DNA of 64,000 nt from Ruania alba. Its GTDB lineage: Bacteria; Actinomycetota; Actinomycetes; Actinomycetales; Beutenbergiaceae. The notes under the pieces are model-generated. The model did not search any database. It had not been told where the DNA came from and saw only the letters and a program-made list of their open reading frames with translations. Numbering within the stretch: position 1 is the stretch's first letter; every line of letters begins with the position of its first letter. The position numbers were made by a program, and so were the translations under genes. The DNA lies in the NCBI RefSeq assembly GCF_900105765.1, contig NZ_FNTX01000002.1:124001-188000 (forward strand), read 5' to 3'. Of the stretch, positions 54,353-61,704 are shown piece by piece.

Positions 54353-54356
<4 letters not shown>
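53664..54356 (-). CDS. grpE: GrpE nucleotide-exchange factor
   Basis: A 230-residue protein: a long Ala/Glu-rich disordered start (1-~80), a coiled coil (~82-130; [20 protein letters not shown]), a four-helix bundle and the C-terminal beta domain ([38 protein letters not shown]). It releases ADP from DnaK. ATG 54356 overlaps the dnaK stop by four bases (ATGA). Confidence 0.95.
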
Positions 54357-56224
<1,868 letters not shown>

Positions 56225-56268
56225 GTGTCTGCTGCTCCTTCCGCTCCGGCGTGCGCCGGAAGCGACTA

Positions 56269-56352
56269 GTTGAGTCTTCCGCACTCAAGTGTGGGACGGT
56301 CCGATCCGAAGATCAAATCGAGTCGGCCAAACTTGAGTCTGTACGGCTCAAC
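56269..56352. promoter_or_regulatory. Two HAIR operators upstream of the dnaK operon
   Basis: Site 1, 56269-56289: GTTGAGT-N7-ACTCAAG. Site 2, 56332-56352: CTTGAGT-N7-GCTCAAC, one position off consensus in the second half. They lie 45 and 108 bases upstream of the dnaK start, the arrangement seen for HspR-controlled dnaK promoters. The rest of the gap, 56353-56578, shows nothing I can support. Confidence 0.9.
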
Positions 56353-56578: not shown

Positions 56579-57406
56579 TCAGGACTCACCGTCGGCGGTC
56601 GAAACCAAGTGCGCGTGCGCGTACTCGCACACCAGCGCGTGCCGGTAGACCAGTTGCGGCACGTCCACGTTCGTGTCCATCCACAGGCTCAGCCCGCCCA
56701 TCTTCCAGTGCCGATACGTCTCGTCCTTGGTGAGTACGGCGAGGATCTCTAGGAAGGAGTCGTCGAAGCGCAGCGAGTGGATCGCGCGCCGGAACTCCTC
56801 CAGGCTGAGCGCGATGCAGAACGGGATATTCATCAGGCACAGGGCCGTCTGGATGTCGAGGCGCATCAGCCGCGGGTGCCGGCGCTCCGGGTCCAGCTCC
56901 GGCACGTCGAGCTGGGAGAAGTCCAGACGGTCCGGTGCTTCGACGTCCACGCCCTCCAGCGCGATGAGCACGTCGTAGACGTTGATGTCGTGCTCGACCA
57001 CCGCGTTCTCACCCAGGCCGGCCAGCGTCGTCGGGCGCAGCGTGACCGGTTCGATATCGGCCGGAGTGTTGCGGATGATGAAGTTCACCAGGTTGGTCTC
57101 CACCACGAAGTGCCGGATCAACAGTTCCACGGCATCGGGGGCGACGAACCGGCGCAGGAACCACAGGCATAGCGCGTCCATTGTGCGCAGCGACATCCAA
57201 CGCCCGGGGAACAGGCGCTTCACGGTCGAGAGCACGGCCACCAGCAGCCGCGAGACGATCCGGGCGACCGGGTAGAGCCAGCGCCGGGAGACGCGCCGCT
57301 GGTCTTTGATGATCATCCGCACCAGCGGCTTCTCGAGCGGGATGGAGGGGTCGGCGTAGATCGCCTCCCACATGCTGGGGTCGGACTTCACGAACTCTGG
57401 TGGCAT
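56579..57406 (-). CDS. Unknown protein encoded with KASIII-like and diiron enzymes
   Basis: A 275-residue protein I do not recognise. It is Leu/Val/Arg-rich and probably mostly helical. A hydrophobic/basic stretch (WLYPVARIVSRLLVAVLSTV, ~43-62) may touch the membrane. Later segments hold conserved-looking polar residues: RHFVVETNLVNFIIRN, ENAVVEHDINVYDVLIALEG, RHWKMGGLSLWMDTN and YRHALVCEYAHAHLV. The gene starts two bases after the stop of the diiron-enzyme gene and must be part of the same operon. It could be a partner, carrier or further enzyme of that pathway; no function is assigned. Confidence 0.75.
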   Translation of the reverse strand: MPPEFVKSDPSMWEAIYADPSIPLEKPLVRMIIKDQRRVSRRWLYPVARIVSRLLVAVLSTVKRLFPGRWMSLRTMDALCLWFLRRFVAPDAVELLIRHFVVETNLVNFIIRNTPADIEPVTLRPTTLAGLGENAVVEHDINVYDVLIALEGVDVEAPDRLDFSQLDVPELDPERRHPRLMRLDIQTALCLMNIPFCIALSLEEFRRAIHSLRFDDSFLEILAVLTKDETYRHWKMGGLSLWMDTNVDVPQLVYRHALVCEYAHAHLVSTADGES

Positions 57407-57408
57407 GG

Positions 57409-58113
57409 TCAGATCTCGTCCAGCTCGGTGAGTTGCATGGCGTACAGCCGGGCGACCACCCGGGCACAGGAGACGATCGCGTCGGCAGCCTCATCGTCGA
57501 TCGCCCCGGAGGTGAGGATGGCGTCGAGCTTTCCGGTGTGCTCCGCGTCGGCCTCCTGGTGATAGGTCATGAAGTGGACCTGATTGTCCGCCAGGCCCAG
57601 CACATCCTGGAACTGCTGCGCCCACGCCGCCGCCTTCTGCGCCCCGAGCCCTTCGATGATGAACATCGCGCCGAGGCACCCGACCGGGTTCGGCTGGCTC
57701 GCCTGATGGAACATGTAGCCCGAGAGCGCCTGCGAGCCGATGTTCTTCCGCCCGGCCCGCAGCGCCTCAAGCGACCCACCCACGGCCACGTAGTCCCGTT
57801 CCAGCAGCAGGTGGTCGCGGTGCTCCTCCAACGCGTGGGAGATCGCAGCCGAACGCAGCTCGAAGTGGTCCATGTCGAAGTTCGAGGCAGCCCGCGCGAT
57901 CCACAGCGAACCGTCCACCACCTGCTGGCGCAGGTTGTGCAGCAGACGCTGGTAATCCGCCACGGTCACCTCGCCATCGGCGAGCGCCCGCAGGATCGGC
58001 ACCTCAGCCAACCGGGTCTCGAACTCGGTCCAGACGTCGGCCAGGCGAGCCAGGAGACTGATCTGCTCCGGCTCCGGCGGGCGATAGCCCTCCACGGTCT
58101 CGGCGGTGGTCAT
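57409..58113 (-). CDS. Heme-oxygenase-like diiron enzyme (HDO/iron-containing redox family)
   Basis: A 234-residue all-helical protein of the heme-oxygenase-like fold. Likely iron ligands appear in the HDO order: Glu and His in HALEEHRDH (96-101), Glu154 in FIIEGLGAQ, and H-x3-D-x2-H in YHQEADAEH (185, 189, 192). Relatives activate oxygen to oxidise fatty acids, amino acids or amines (for example UndA, BesC, CADD). It overlaps the KASIII-like gene by four bases (ATGA), so it may oxidise that enzyme's acyl product. The substrate is not known. Confidence 0.82.
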   Translation of the reverse strand: MTTAETVEGYRPPEPEQISLLARLADVWTEFETRLAEVPILRALADGEVTVADYQRLLHNLRQQVVDGSLWIARAASNFDMDHFELRSAAISHALEEHRDHLLLERDYVAVGGSLEALRAGRKNIGSQALSGYMFHQASQPNPVGCLGAMFIIEGLGAQKAAAWAQQFQDVLGLADNQVHFMTYHQEADAEHTGKLDAILTSGAIDDEAADAIVSCARVVARLYAMQLTELDEI

Positions 58114-59240
58114 CGGTTGCTCCTTCGGGGTTCAACGACGGTCAGGTGGGCAAATCCGAACGAGAACCGGCCGGACTCGGGGACTGCGAGCAGGATCGTC
58201 TCTCCCGCGGAGAACCTCCCGGTACGCCAGGCCTCCTCCAGGGCGATGAAGATGCTGGCAGCGCCAGTGTTGCCGCAGGTCTCGAGGTTGGAGAACCAGC
58301 GGTTCGTGTCCAGTCCGGGGACCCGTCTGCTGAGGGCATCGAAGACGACGTCCCGGAAGGCATTGGTGCTGTAGTGGCAGATCACGTGGTCGAGCTTTGT
58401 CAGATCCACCAAGCCGCGATCCACCAATTCCTCGAACTGTGCCAGCCCAGCCGCCGCGAGCTCATCGAGCACCTTCGTCTCCTGCCGGATCTGCAGCAGC
58501 CCCGCCTTCTCCGCCGTGGCCACGTCGGCATAGTCCTGCCACGTACTCCCCGCGACCGCGGAAGGCCCGTCGAGGCCGGCACGCATGCACACCTCGTGCT
58601 CGTGCGCGAGCGAGACCTGGCGCACCCAGTCCACCCGGAGCGAGGGCCGGTCCGGACGAGGCTGGAACTCCACGATCGCAGCACCTGCGCCGTCGGAGAG
58701 CATCCACCGGAGGAAGTGTGCGTCCAGATGGTCGGTGACGCCGTCGAATCGCCGCTGGTGCAACCAGCGGCTGGCCAGCTCCGAGCCCACGACGGCGGCC
58801 CGTGGGTGTTCCCCGAGCCTCACCTTGCTCACGGCTGCGTCGAGTGCGGCGATGCTGGAGGCACACACACCGGCGGCGGTGAGTACCTGCATCGGGCCGC
58901 CGCCGAGGCGGCCGTGCACCATCGAGGCGAAGCCGGGGACGAGCAGGTCACCCTGGGTGGTGGCGCAGGCGAGCATGCCCAGGTCGGTGGCGGCGATACC
59001 GCGATCGCTGAGTGCGTCCTCGATCGCGTGGACGGCGAGCTCCTCGTTCAGCTCGGTAGTGCGCCCCTCGGTGTCCATCGCGTAGTACCGCTGCCGGATG
59101 CCGTTGGCGCTCTGGATGCGCGTGCGGATCCGCTCGGTGCGCCTGTCGACGCCGCCGAGTCGGCTGGCGACCTGGTCGTTGGAGACCGGTTCGCCGGGCA
59201 GGTACCGGCCGAGTCCGGTCAGATATGCGGTCGCTGGCAT
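58110..59240 (-). CDS. 3-oxoacyl-ACP synthase III-like (KASIII family) condensing enzyme
   Basis: A 376-residue thiolase-fold enzyme. The KASIII triad is complete: Cys126 in TAAGVCASSIAALD, His289 in DHVICHYSTNAF and Asn324 in ETCGNTGAASI. It would condense an acyl starter with malonyl-ACP or another acyl unit. It is longer than housekeeping FabH (~320) and has an unusual middle (LRWMLSDGAGAAIVEFQP; a long 195-270 insert), as in specialised pathway members. ATG 59240 is taken; TTG 59258 is possible and neither has a good ribosome site. First gene of a three-gene operon. Confidence 0.85.
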   Translation of the reverse strand: MPATAYLTGLGRYLPGEPVSNDQVASRLGGVDRRTERIRTRIQSANGIRQRYYAMDTEGRTTELNEELAVHAIEDALSDRGIAATDLGMLACATTQGDLLVPGFASMVHGRLGGGPMQVLTAAGVCASSIAALDAAVSKVRLGEHPRAAVVGSELASRWLHQRRFDGVTDHLDAHFLRWMLSDGAGAAIVEFQPRPDRPSLRVDWVRQVSLAHEHEVCMRAGLDGPSAVAGSTWQDYADVATAEKAGLLQIRQETKVLDELAAAGLAQFEELVDRGLVDLTKLDHVICHYSTNAFRDVVFDALSRRVPGLDTNRWFSNLETCGNTGAASIFIALEEAWRTGRFSAGETILLAVPESGRFSFGFAHLTVVEPRRSNR

Positions 59241-59326
59241 GGGCTCATTCAGCCACAACCTGTTGCACTGTGGCGACAGGCACGCCCTCGCCTGTGGACA
59301 GGGCCCTGCTCGGATACCGTCAATCG

Positions 59327-60193
59327 ATGCGCGACCACCCCCTGGCCCGGCTCACTTCCGCGCAACGCGCCCTGCTGGCAGCCTGGCTTCCCGGGCTCAC
59401 GATCCTCGCGGACCTCAGTTGGGAGCTGGTCGAGACCACCGTGCTCCACGCTTCCACAGCGGACGGCACGCAGGTGGTCATCAAGGCAGGTGGACCGTCG
59501 GATCATCACATCGAGCGAGAGATCCGAGCCCACCGGCAGTGGACGACGCCATGGACGGCAACAGGTCACGCATCCCGCCTCCTGCACGGCGACAGTGAGG
59601 CGAAGCTCCTCGTCACCACCTACCTCACTGGCCGCCTCGTTCTCGAGACTCCCGATGAGGACGATCCCGAGGTCTACCGTCTGGCCGGAGAGCTACTGAC
59701 CGCTTTCCACGGCCAGGCCGAACTGATCGACCACGACTGGGAGCGGCGGGAGAATGCCAAGAGCCTGGCCTGGCTGGACCGACCACACCGGGTCGATCCG
59801 GCCCATGAGGCAGTTCTCCGCCTAGCGATCGCCACCTGGCCGACACCATCGGCAACCCTCGTACCGACGCACGGGGACTGGCAGCCGCGCAACTGGCTGA
59901 TCGATGGCACCGAGGTCCGCGTGATCGACTTCGGTCGCGCCGCATGGCGCCCGGCCTCCACCGATCTCGCGCGGCTGGCTGCCCGGAACTTCAGCTGGGA
60001 CCCGGCGCTCGAGCACGCCTTCTTCTCAGGCTATGGCACGGACCCGCGGGAGCCCGAGTCGTGGCTCCGGTGCCGGGTGCGGGAGGCGATCGGCACGGCG
60101 GCCTGGGCGTACCAGGTCGGCGACCGAGGGTTCGAGGCCGAGGGCCATCACATGATCGAGAGGGTTGTCCCACTGCTCCACGAGATGGGCTAG
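59327..60193 (+). CDS. Aminoglycoside-phosphotransferase-fold kinase
   Basis: A 288-residue protein of the APH/ChoK kinase superfamily. The ATP lysine is in TQVVIKAGG, the catalytic loop is THGDWQPRNWLI (H-G-D-x4-N) and the metal motif is VIDFGRA. Substrate unknown; such proteins phosphorylate sugars, choline or antibiotics, and no resistance claim is made. ATG 59327 follows TACCGT by exactly six bases (leaderless), so the frame extending back to 59225 is not used. It overlaps the convergent LLM gene by four bases. Confidence 0.82.
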   Translation: MRDHPLARLTSAQRALLAAWLPGLTILADLSWELVETTVLHASTADGTQVVIKAGGPSDHHIEREIRAHRQWTTPWTATGHASRLLHGDSEAKLLVTTYLTGRLVLETPDEDDPEVYRLAGELLTAFHGQAELIDHDWERRENAKSLAWLDRPHRVDPAHEAVLRLAIATWPTPSATLVPTHGDWQPRNWLIDGTEVRVIDFGRAAWRPASTDLARLAARNFSWDPALEHAFFSGYGTDPREPESWLRCRVREAIGTAAWAYQVGDRGFEAEGHHMIERVVPLLHEMG

Positions 60194-61112
60194 CGGCCGA
60201 GCACCGCCATCACCCGCTCCATCGTCGCCGTCGCCGGCTCGCGCACGACGTAGCGGGTGATACCCAGATCCCGAGCCTGCCGATGGAGCTGTGCGGCCAT
60301 CTCGTCGAGGGTGCCGATCAGGAGGAACGGAGCCTGGGCAAGGTCGTCCACTGACGAACCAGGCAGTCGGTCGACGAGCTCGGCGAGCACCGCCCGGCGA
60401 TCATCAGTCTCCGTAACCACCTGCACCAGTGCCTCGACCTCCGGCACTGTCCCGGCATGGTCCTGCTCCGCCCGGATGATCGCCAGCTGCCGGGCGAGCC
60501 GTTCGGCACTCCAGCGCACGTCATGCCGATGCCCATCCGGGAGGGTCCGGCCGAGGCCGCTCAGGCCGACCACGTCGGCAGTTCGAGCAGCCAGCCGGAG
60601 CAGGTCCGAATGCCCACCCCGACGGCGATACTCACCCTGCCGGCATCAGGTAGCCCCTCGAGGGCAGCGCCCTCGAGCGTGAGATACCGGCCCTGAGACG
60701 AGACACGCTCGCCGCCGAGCAGCCGCTCCACGGCATCCACGAACTCGGCAAGGCGACCGATGCGATCGGCAGGTGAGGGACGCCGTCGGCCGCTCACCTC
60801 CCACTCACCGAAGGTGTGCCCGGCACCCAGGCCGAGAATCACCCGGCCCGGCGCCAGCGCGTCAAGAGTTGCAGCATCGGTGGCCACCTGCAGCGGGTCG
60901 CGGACCCCTGTCTGCAGCACGCAGGTACCGAGCCGCAGGGTCGAGGTGACGGCGGCCGCCGCACCGAGCGCGGGCCAGGGTGATGGCCCGGCACCCGGGT
61001 GGTCACCCATCAGCAACGCCGTGAATCCGGCCGACTCCAGCCGGCGTGCGAGGGTGAGCCAGGACTCCAGGTCCCGCGGCTCGGCCTGGACACTGATGCT
61101 GATGCGCGTCAC
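60190..61112 (-). pseudogene. LLM-class flavin-dependent oxidoreductase, frame broken by one base
   Basis: About 307 residues in two frames. Part one starts at GTG 61112 (VTRISISVQAEPRDLESWL) and runs through MGDHPGAGPSPWPALGAAAA, GRVILGLGAGHTFGEWEVSG and DAGRVSIAVGVG, then leaves the family frame near 60612. The -1 frame continues HSDLLRLAARTADVVGLSG and GRTLPDGHRHDVRW to the stop at 60190. One more G in the GGG run of GTGGGCAT restores the expected VGVGGHSDLL. CACGAT lies six bases before GTG 61112. Homologues use F420 or FMN to oxidise varied substrates. Confidence 0.78.
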
Positions 61113-61173
61113 AGGTGGATCGTGACACGGCCGAGCGGCACGCGCGAGGGGCGCCCCAGCGCTTCTCGCGGGG

Positions 61174-61704
61174 TCAACCCGACGGAGGGCTGTGCGTGGC
61201 GGTGCCGTCGGTGAGTTCATCGAGCAGCGCGAGGTCGTGGACGTCCTGCGGGCGGTGCTGGTAACCGGTGTGGAAGCGGCGCTGCTGCGCGACCGACAGG
61301 CACGGCACGTCGCGGCCGGCGATACACCCGGTCACGAAGACCTCTGGCGGGTAGTCGAAATGAATGCTGTCGGCCTCACCCTGGAGGCCGTGCCCGGCGG
61401 CGTCGAAGGCGACCGGATGCACGTCCACCCATCGACTCCCCGGCGCGGCGACCTCCACGCGGAGCGGCAGCCAGTCCGTCTCGACCTGGTAGCCGAGGTC
61501 AGCCAGCGCGGCCATGCACGCCTCGAGTTGCTCGGCATCGACGGCGAGGTCCAGGTCGCGGTGATCGCGGGTCTGGCGCCCTGCCAGAGCATCGACGCCC
61601 CAACCGCCGGCGACCCAGTGCGGCACGCCGGCCGCGGTCAACGCGTCCAGCACCTGGTTCACCTCGACGTCGCGCACCCGGCCATTGTGCAGCACTGCTC
61701 TCAC
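61174..61704 (-). CDS. Nucleotidyltransferase-domain protein (aminoglycoside-adenylyltransferase-like)
   Basis: A 176-residue protein with the small NTase fold: WVAGGWGVDALAGRQTRDHR-DLDLAVD holds the G-G and D-x-D metal motif, followed by ADLGYQVETDWLPLRVEV and VDVHPVAF. This pattern matches LinB/ANT(2'')-like proteins. It would transfer a nucleotide to a small molecule; the actual substrate is unknown. GTG 61704 is used, with no strong ribosome site; nearby in-frame GTGs are possible. Confidence 0.75.
   Translation of the reverse strand: MRAVLHNGRVRDVEVNQVLDALTAAGVPHWVAGGWGVDALAGRQTRDHRDLDLAVDAEQLEACMAALADLGYQVETDWLPLRVEVAAPGSRWVDVHPVAFDAAGHGLQGEADSIHFDYPPEVFVTGCIAGRDVPCLSVAQQRRFHTGYQHRPQDVHDLALLDELTDGTATHSPPSG

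Follow-up and report, generated by a model that had tools for sequence, protein, structure and literature searches.

A conserved ketosynthase, heme-oxygenase-like oxidase and DUF6999 trio in Ruania alba and a candidate pathway to ring lipids

Three genes encoding a ketosynthase (KS), a heme-oxygenase-like oxidase and a DUF6999 protein lie head to tail on the minus strand of a 64,000-nucleotide stretch of the high-GC actinobacterial genome of Ruania alba (contig NZ_FNTX01000002.1, positions 124,001 to 188,000; hereafter the window, meaning that whole stretch). Our data demonstrate that this trio is a conserved unit and no local accident. They also suggest that it specifies a compact ring-lipid pathway, in which the KS would build a ring, the oxidase, a predicted heme-oxygenase-like dimetal oxidase (HDO), would oxidise it in DarA's stead and DUF6999 would act last, a reading to which we give a probability of about one half. 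We found no description of the KS-oxidase-DUF6999 trio in the open-access papers searched.

A profile from nine aligned oxidases was scanned against 84,980 species genomes, and the best 80 of the 115 relatives were examined. The KS lies immediately upstream of the oxidase in 80 of these 80 loci and a DUF6999 match lies downstream in 77, with constant gene order. At the three loci without such a match (L030, L079 and L080) the contigs stop 2, 576 and 536 bases past the oxidase; L079 and L080 are myxobacterial, as is L083, where oxidase and DUF6999 are 868 bases apart. According to the record titles, the loci come from seven phyla (Actinomycetota, Pseudomonadota, Bacteroidota, Myxococcota, Cyanobacteriota, Bacillota and Fidelibacterota), and a Pseudoalteromonas plasmid carries the trio in the identical order. 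The reverse search, starting from DUF6999, found KS and oxidase in all 17 genomes with DUF6999 in three samplings: 11 actinobacterial genomes (4 among the 396 of a phylum-wide sample, 10 among the 99 of an overlapping sample of relatives, the R. alba genome counted) and 6 of 289 alphaproteobacterial ones, including the centre genome, which had been picked via its oxidase. The genome of Caulobacter vibrioides likewise gives matches to the KS family and to DUF6999. The trio family is rare and patchy inside each group. Its homologues do not show the scatter that would have spoken against the operon proposed in the first-pass annotation of this DNA, made from the letters alone.

Clustering of open reading frames (ORFs) around 41 loci, done by longest-ORF picking, which is error-prone in high-GC DNA, found no non-trio gene common to most loci, and two of the ORF clusters (F2 and F4) are antisense ORFs overlying the trio. 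An Aas-like (MFS-PlsC-AMP-ligase) gene adjoins or flanks L086, L088, L092, L095, L099 and L103 (called by Pfam for L086 and L099, by BLAST cluster for L088, L092 and L103, and by eye in frame for L095), and in the Bacteroidota loci L090, L096 and L106 the fusion gene is immediately preceded by an FA_hydroxylase-family gene (by Pfam in L090, by BLAST in the others). Both neighbours are local, and a wider conserved cluster beyond the trio is unsupported. A viral origin was rejected: not one of the 116 places where the pattern matched viral contigs encodes a relative.

KS and oxidase form a single stop-free frame in 18 of the 80 loci, drawn from six phyla; Flagellimonas and Glycomyces are among the bearers of such a fusion. 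In a quick tree of part of the set (16 fused trio proteins and 21 separate ones), the fused and separate states switch at least four times along well-supported branches. Two longer frames were discarded as fusions: the 1281-aa ORF of L095 is an artefact of a wrong upstream frame, the KS-oxidase fusion of that locus itself standing, and the 621-aa ORF of L102 holds KS and oxidase in different frames. Pairwise distances of the three proteins correlate (r 0.93-0.97 over 78 sets; maximum after shuffling 0.27), which shows, at the level of sequence distances, joint inheritance of the trio, species relatedness being included in the r values. The conserved trio in seven phyla, the fusions and the distances tracking each other support the earlier proposal that the three genes act together.

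The KS matches Pfam ACP_syn_III and ACP_syn_III_C, and its Cys-His-Asn triad is complete, as first noticed in the window, with C132, H295 and N330 conserved in 82 of 82 aligned sequences. The closest solved structure is StlD (5gk0; 2.8e-61 across residues 8-375). The protein scores 326.6 bits (2e-97) against NCBIfam NF005293 (StlD/DarB; below the cut-off of 450) and 298.5 bits (7.5e-89) against NF053539 (DarB; below the cut-off of 550), and the NF005293 cut-off is reached in 0 of 14 trio genomes. Among the matches listed for NF005293 in 148 Bacteroidota genomes, eight KS score 511-601 bits, one trio KS, from the sample's centre genome, which was chosen for it, scores 439 and the others, at FabH level, score at most 48; one of the eight, checked against the DarB model, passes 550 with 670 bits.

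We compared 82 trio, 11 DarA-partnered and 11 FabH-like KS sequences. In the trio KS, 61 positions reach 95% conservation. Of these, 18 are shared with the DarA-partnered KS and seldom seen in the FabH-like ones, and not one of the 61 is rare among DarA-partnered KS. The trio KS group with DarB in a tree, apart from FabH-like KS, with support of 100 (trio KS as one clade: approximately unbiased (AU) p 0.43). Against TIGR00747 (fabH) the window KS reaches 85.3 bits, short of the cut-off of 292.1, and a second ACP_syn_III_C match in the same genome, on contig C1, is a separate FabH-like gene. The KS is thus not the genome's only FabH-like gene, and the fabH score together with the separate gene rules out a primary-metabolism FabH/KASIII. 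By sequence, the KS is a member of the StlD/DarB superfamily and not a FabH, and it is because of this membership that it is longer than FabH, a length difference correctly noted in the first pass. According to PMC5515871, DarB yields 4-carboxy-2,5-dialkylcyclohexane-1,3-diones and StlD forms a related ring.

The identity of the KS bears directly on the product. The first-pass annotation had taken the enzyme for a KASIII-like synthase on the way to an oxidised acyl product. A rival explanation of this kind, in which a KASIII- or OleA-like KS makes a linear condensed chain from which the oxidase derives an alkene, a nitrile or a cleaved or hydroxylated chain, can point to UndA, an HDO whose substrates are fatty acids (PMC13108848), and to acyl handling nearby, namely the Aas-like genes of some alphaproteobacteria and the FA_hydroxylase genes of L090, L096 and L106. 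However, the KS has the DarA-partnered residue signature and StlD as its closest solved relative, and in the alignment, read by eye, the glutamate reported for OleA and PpyS (PMC4578411) has no visible counterpart in its matching GD-xxx-PG stretch. The KS resembles the ring-forming StlD/DarB enzymes, and we consider a linear product improbable: an alkene, nitrile or hydroxylated chain would be less likely than an oxidised cyclohexanedione or resorcinol.

The second line of evidence is an exchange of partners. darA is listed as the dialkylresorcinol (DAR)-aromatase gene in PMC3949708, and a DarA-like gene stands beside DarB in eight of eight Bacteroidota DarB loci, with no HDO or DUF6999 match within 1.5 kb on each side. 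Three of 246 Actinomycetota genomes carry a superfamily KS: two are trios (the R. alba genome and G225) and one is a KS with a DarA-like gene. DarA-like genes were named from their place beside DarB and their mutual similarity; of two such proteins, neither matched an NCBIfam model, and Pfam gave one only a weak flavodoxin-like match (E 0.01, under the cut-off). A DarA profile (A7) of six rows, picked by position beside DarB, matched none of 25 trio genomes and matched strongly in three of three control DarB genomes outside the profile. On this evidence the oxidase holds the slot that DarA fills in the known pathway. Because an StlD/DarB-type KS pairs with an HDO and the DarA profile finds none in 25 trio genomes, it is probable that the HDO stands in for DarA and oxidises the ring. 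The earlier idea that an HDO acts oxidatively on what a condensing enzyme makes is in this sense the best reading of the trio.

Other arrangements of superfamily KS were seen along the way. The DarA-type arrangement occurs on Streptomyces plasmids; on one (L107:11712-21288) the DarB/DarA-like pair sits within a larger cluster with an FAD monooxygenase, an SCP2 protein, FabF, a P450, carrier proteins and FabG. An actinobacterial DarB-like KS (L179/L182; G150:C1:1622000-1636000) is accompanied by a DarA-like gene (47% to that of Streptomyces), and by eye this pair is apparently near carrier-protein and polyketide-synthase-like frames. Orphan StlD/DarB-family KS lie right after a TetR/helix-turn-helix gene on Prevotella and Bacteroides plasmids (L109:8010-9146 and L175:6001-7143), with neither DarA nor oxidase annotated adjacent to them, and pairing is therefore not universal in the superfamily.

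The oxidase passes the Pfam cut-off for Haem_oxygenas_2 (PF14518; 44.3 bits, cut-off 28.9). Its AlphaFold2 model (pLDDT, the predicted local distance difference test score, 92.5) has the heme-oxygenase-like fold and superposes on 3dde (Z 25.7, root-mean-square deviation (rmsd) 2.1 over 215) and on CADD, 1rcw (Z 24.4, rmsd 2.1 over 208). Alignments for structure prediction and conservation listing held 49 of 78, 52 of 81 and 42 of 81 rows picked for spread; residue counts throughout use all rows. The canonical HDO motif is given as E-H-E-H-(D/E)-H (PMC11363339), a source that puts about 85% of the HDO groups it analysed as canonical and about 9% as without a strong prediction, and in MboA the first two ligands are Glu86 and His89, i.e. 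E-x2-H (PMC13185094). The window oxidase has five of the six canonical positions. In the alignment to 3dde, E97 stands opposite Glu and D100 opposite His, and this second position is Asp100 in 82 of 82 sequences. E97, E154, H185 and H192 are also invariant in all 82, as are H93 and H98; D189 is found in 78 and replaced by Asn in four flavobacterial fusions (L090, L096, L105 and L106). The ligand pattern proposed in the first pass therefore holds for E97, E154 and H185-x3-D189-x2-H192 but is not canonical, and the aligned motif of this lineage deviates at its second position.

The variant ligand opens two further explanations. In the first, the heme-oxygenase-like protein is a metal-free or mononuclear helper, like PqqC, TenA or FlcD, that cyclises, hydrolyses or aromatises the KS product; the replacement of one canonical ligand in all 82 sequences and of D189 in four would fit such a role, PqqC and TenA are structural neighbours of the model (Z about 20-22) and FlcD is described as mononuclear (PMC11363339). 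The invariance of E97, D100, E154, H185 and H192, the retention of D189 in 78 sequences and the presence of the dimetal protein CADD among the closest structural neighbours argue the other way, and we find this account very improbable. In the second, a DarB-type ring is formed, but the oxidase hydroxylates it, cleaves a C-C bond or contracts it, giving a new product class that DUF6999 completes. The invariant D100 hints at chemistry beyond DarA replacement, as does a third conserved gene that is not seen within 1.5 kb of the eight DarB loci, and HDO reactions are diverse (PMC13108848). Nothing pointed positively to any particular alternative reaction, however, and aromatisation explains the replacement pattern more simply, so that this explanation is possible though doubtful.

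Other heme-oxygenase-like proteins were met on Pseudoalteromonas and Vibrio plasmids (L025:10477-12636 and L026:7947-8618), in a recurring cluster with a 'thermostable hemolysin', an AMP-binding ligase, the oxidase, a short-chain dehydrogenase/reductase (SDR) and regulators. In L025 the oxidase match falls inside the gene annotated as AMP-binding, and the two may be fused.

For the ring-lipid pathway we propose three steps. The KS, given its superfamily, would condense a beta-ketoacyl thioester with an alpha,beta-unsaturated acyl thioester, both drawn from fatty-acid metabolism, to a 4-carboxy-2,5-dialkylcyclohexane-1,3-dione. The oxidase, as the partner exchange and the fusions suggest, would then use O2 to oxidise this labile ring acid to a 2,5-dialkylresorcinol or a close relative. 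For UndA, double-bond formation coupled to CO2 loss is described (PMC13185094; PMC13108848), and an UndA-like hydrogen abstraction at the ring position adjoining the carboxyl-bearing carbon, coupled to CO2 release, could create the C4=C5 bond. Tautomerisation would then aromatise the ring to the dialkylresorcinol. Such beta-keto acids lose CO2 readily; direct transfer from KS to oxidase would therefore be favoured, which fits the fusions. More speculatively, DUF6999, which carries a conserved His/Asp/Glu set and a helix of moderate hydrophobicity, may act last on the product as a metal-dependent, perhaps membrane-associated enzyme. We infer the product from what is seen directly, that is, the trio, its fusions and spread, the partner exchange and the conserved residues.

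The third gene, described in the first pass as a protein of unknown kind, indeed has no assigned function but already belongs to a named Pfam family, DUF6999 (PF22523; 3.9e-93, 311.9 bits, cut-off 27 passed), on which we found no paper in the open-access literature. Its AlphaFold2 model (pLDDT 91.7) is mostly helical. At E below 0.001 Foldseek returned nothing from the PDB (best probability 0.21), VIA-align gave a best Z of 3.9, no viral model matched with E below 0.001, and against PDB sequences the profile had no hit and the single sequence one chance hit (E 1.8); these failed matches do not show that the fold is new. A relationship to the oxidase was rejected (probability 0.1 in hhalign of the two profiles), and reading the H...HD...D residues as an HD-domain oxygenase is unsupported by the fold and sequence searches made for DUF6999. 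D184, D215, H256 and E261 are present in 79 of 79 sequences and H99, F109, N113, P125 and D140 in 78 (one gap), which suggests a catalytic, possibly metal-binding site, the metal being a guess. In Brachybacterium squillarum (L055, 8623-9264) only a fragment of about 91 residues matches DUF6999, which may reflect a frameshift or a decaying gene.

A bolder version of the scheme would see in the trio a new, widespread class of ring-lipid biosynthesis, with the KS and an HDO of previously uncharacterised ligand set working as one, sometimes fused, machine for oxidative decarboxylation-aromatisation of a KS-made cyclohexanedione acid, and with a new-fold DUF6999 as second, new metalloenzyme on the product; we think this version unlikely. 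We know of no earlier description of oxidative decarboxylation-aromatisation by an HDO.

The three ORFs, their overlap and their gap were all found where the first reading of the window placed them (Table 1). A second in-frame start candidate, an ATG, lies six codons past the TTG of the KS, and the exact start codon is unsure because the relative L021 has GTG in place of this TTG and, like the R. alba gene, an ATG six codons later. A dnaK-like ORF (54353-56284) lies 294 bases downstream of the trio and a divergent phosphotransferase-like ORF on the other flank, both named by eye, and a promoter and terminator scan found nothing. Further along, two minus-strand ORFs that overlap in different frames (60190-60573 and 60561-61220) resemble, when read by eye, the C-terminal and the N-terminal half of a single LLM-class flavin-dependent oxidoreductase, whose gene may be broken or frameshifted.

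Table 1. Genes of the trio and their junctions, in window coordinates
Feature	Position	Strand	Description
Ketosynthase (KS), StlD/DarB superfamily	58110-59258	-	382 aa, TTG start; triad C132-H295-N330
Heme-oxygenase-like oxidase (PF14518)	57409-58113	-	234 aa; variant motif E97-D100-E154-H185-D189-H192
DUF6999 protein (PF22523)	56579-57406	-	275 aa; mostly helical, conserved His/Asp/Glu set
ATGA overlap, 4 bases, KS stop/oxidase start	58110-58113	-	fusion joint in 18/80 relatives
Two-base gap, oxidase/DUF6999	57407-57408	-	

Several points weigh against the ring-lipid pathway. The trio KS falls under the NCBI cut-offs for StlD/DarB and DarB, and its substrates or ring chemistry may therefore differ. 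Asp at the second ligand and Asn for D189 in 4 of 82 sequences make the predicted dimetal site uncertain. The DarA-like genes owe their name to position and mutual similarity, the two proteins tested giving one weak Pfam match and no NCBIfam match, and a common genomic slot does not prove a common reaction. The mirrored distances of the trio carry shared species relatedness in them. No acyl carrier protein or reductase was found within the unit, the supply of electrons to the oxidase is unexplained, and the scheme itself implies no role for DUF6999.

According to PMC13108848, the HDOs with functional validation number about a dozen, most of them working on fatty or amino acids, and dialkylresorcinols are reported as bacterial signals (PMC4578411). 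The lineage described here occurs in seven phyla and is tied to a KS with known superfamily chemistry, which makes its substrate guessable and testable. If the ring-lipid pathway is correct, two unrelated enzymes, DarA and an O2-using HDO, would serve the identical aromatisation, DUF6999 would gain a functional context, and the natural KS-oxidase fusion could be used for producing resorcinol-type lipids.

Among known systems, CADD and 3dde come nearest in structure to the modelled oxidase (Z 24-26), although their identity to the trio oxidase is low (17-19%), and we know of no ketosynthase partner for either. UndA is alike in HDO superfamily and in the proposed C=C-forming oxidative decarboxylation but acts on free fatty acids, whereas the trio oxidase has Asp for the second (His) ligand and is tied to a KS. 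StlD (5gk0) resembles the trio KS in alignment span (8-375) and triad, the trio KS differing in scoring under the StlD/DarB family cut-off. Close as well is the DarA-DarB pathway of flexirubins, arcuflavin and the Photorhabdus signals, with which the trio shares the KS superfamily, the DarA-partnered residue signature and an adjoining gene for the presumed oxidative step. The trio differs in having an HDO instead of DarA (DarA profile: 0 of 25 trio genomes), in a KS below the NCBI DarB and StlD/DarB cut-offs, in the fusion of KS and oxidase in 18 of 80 loci and in the addition of DUF6999.

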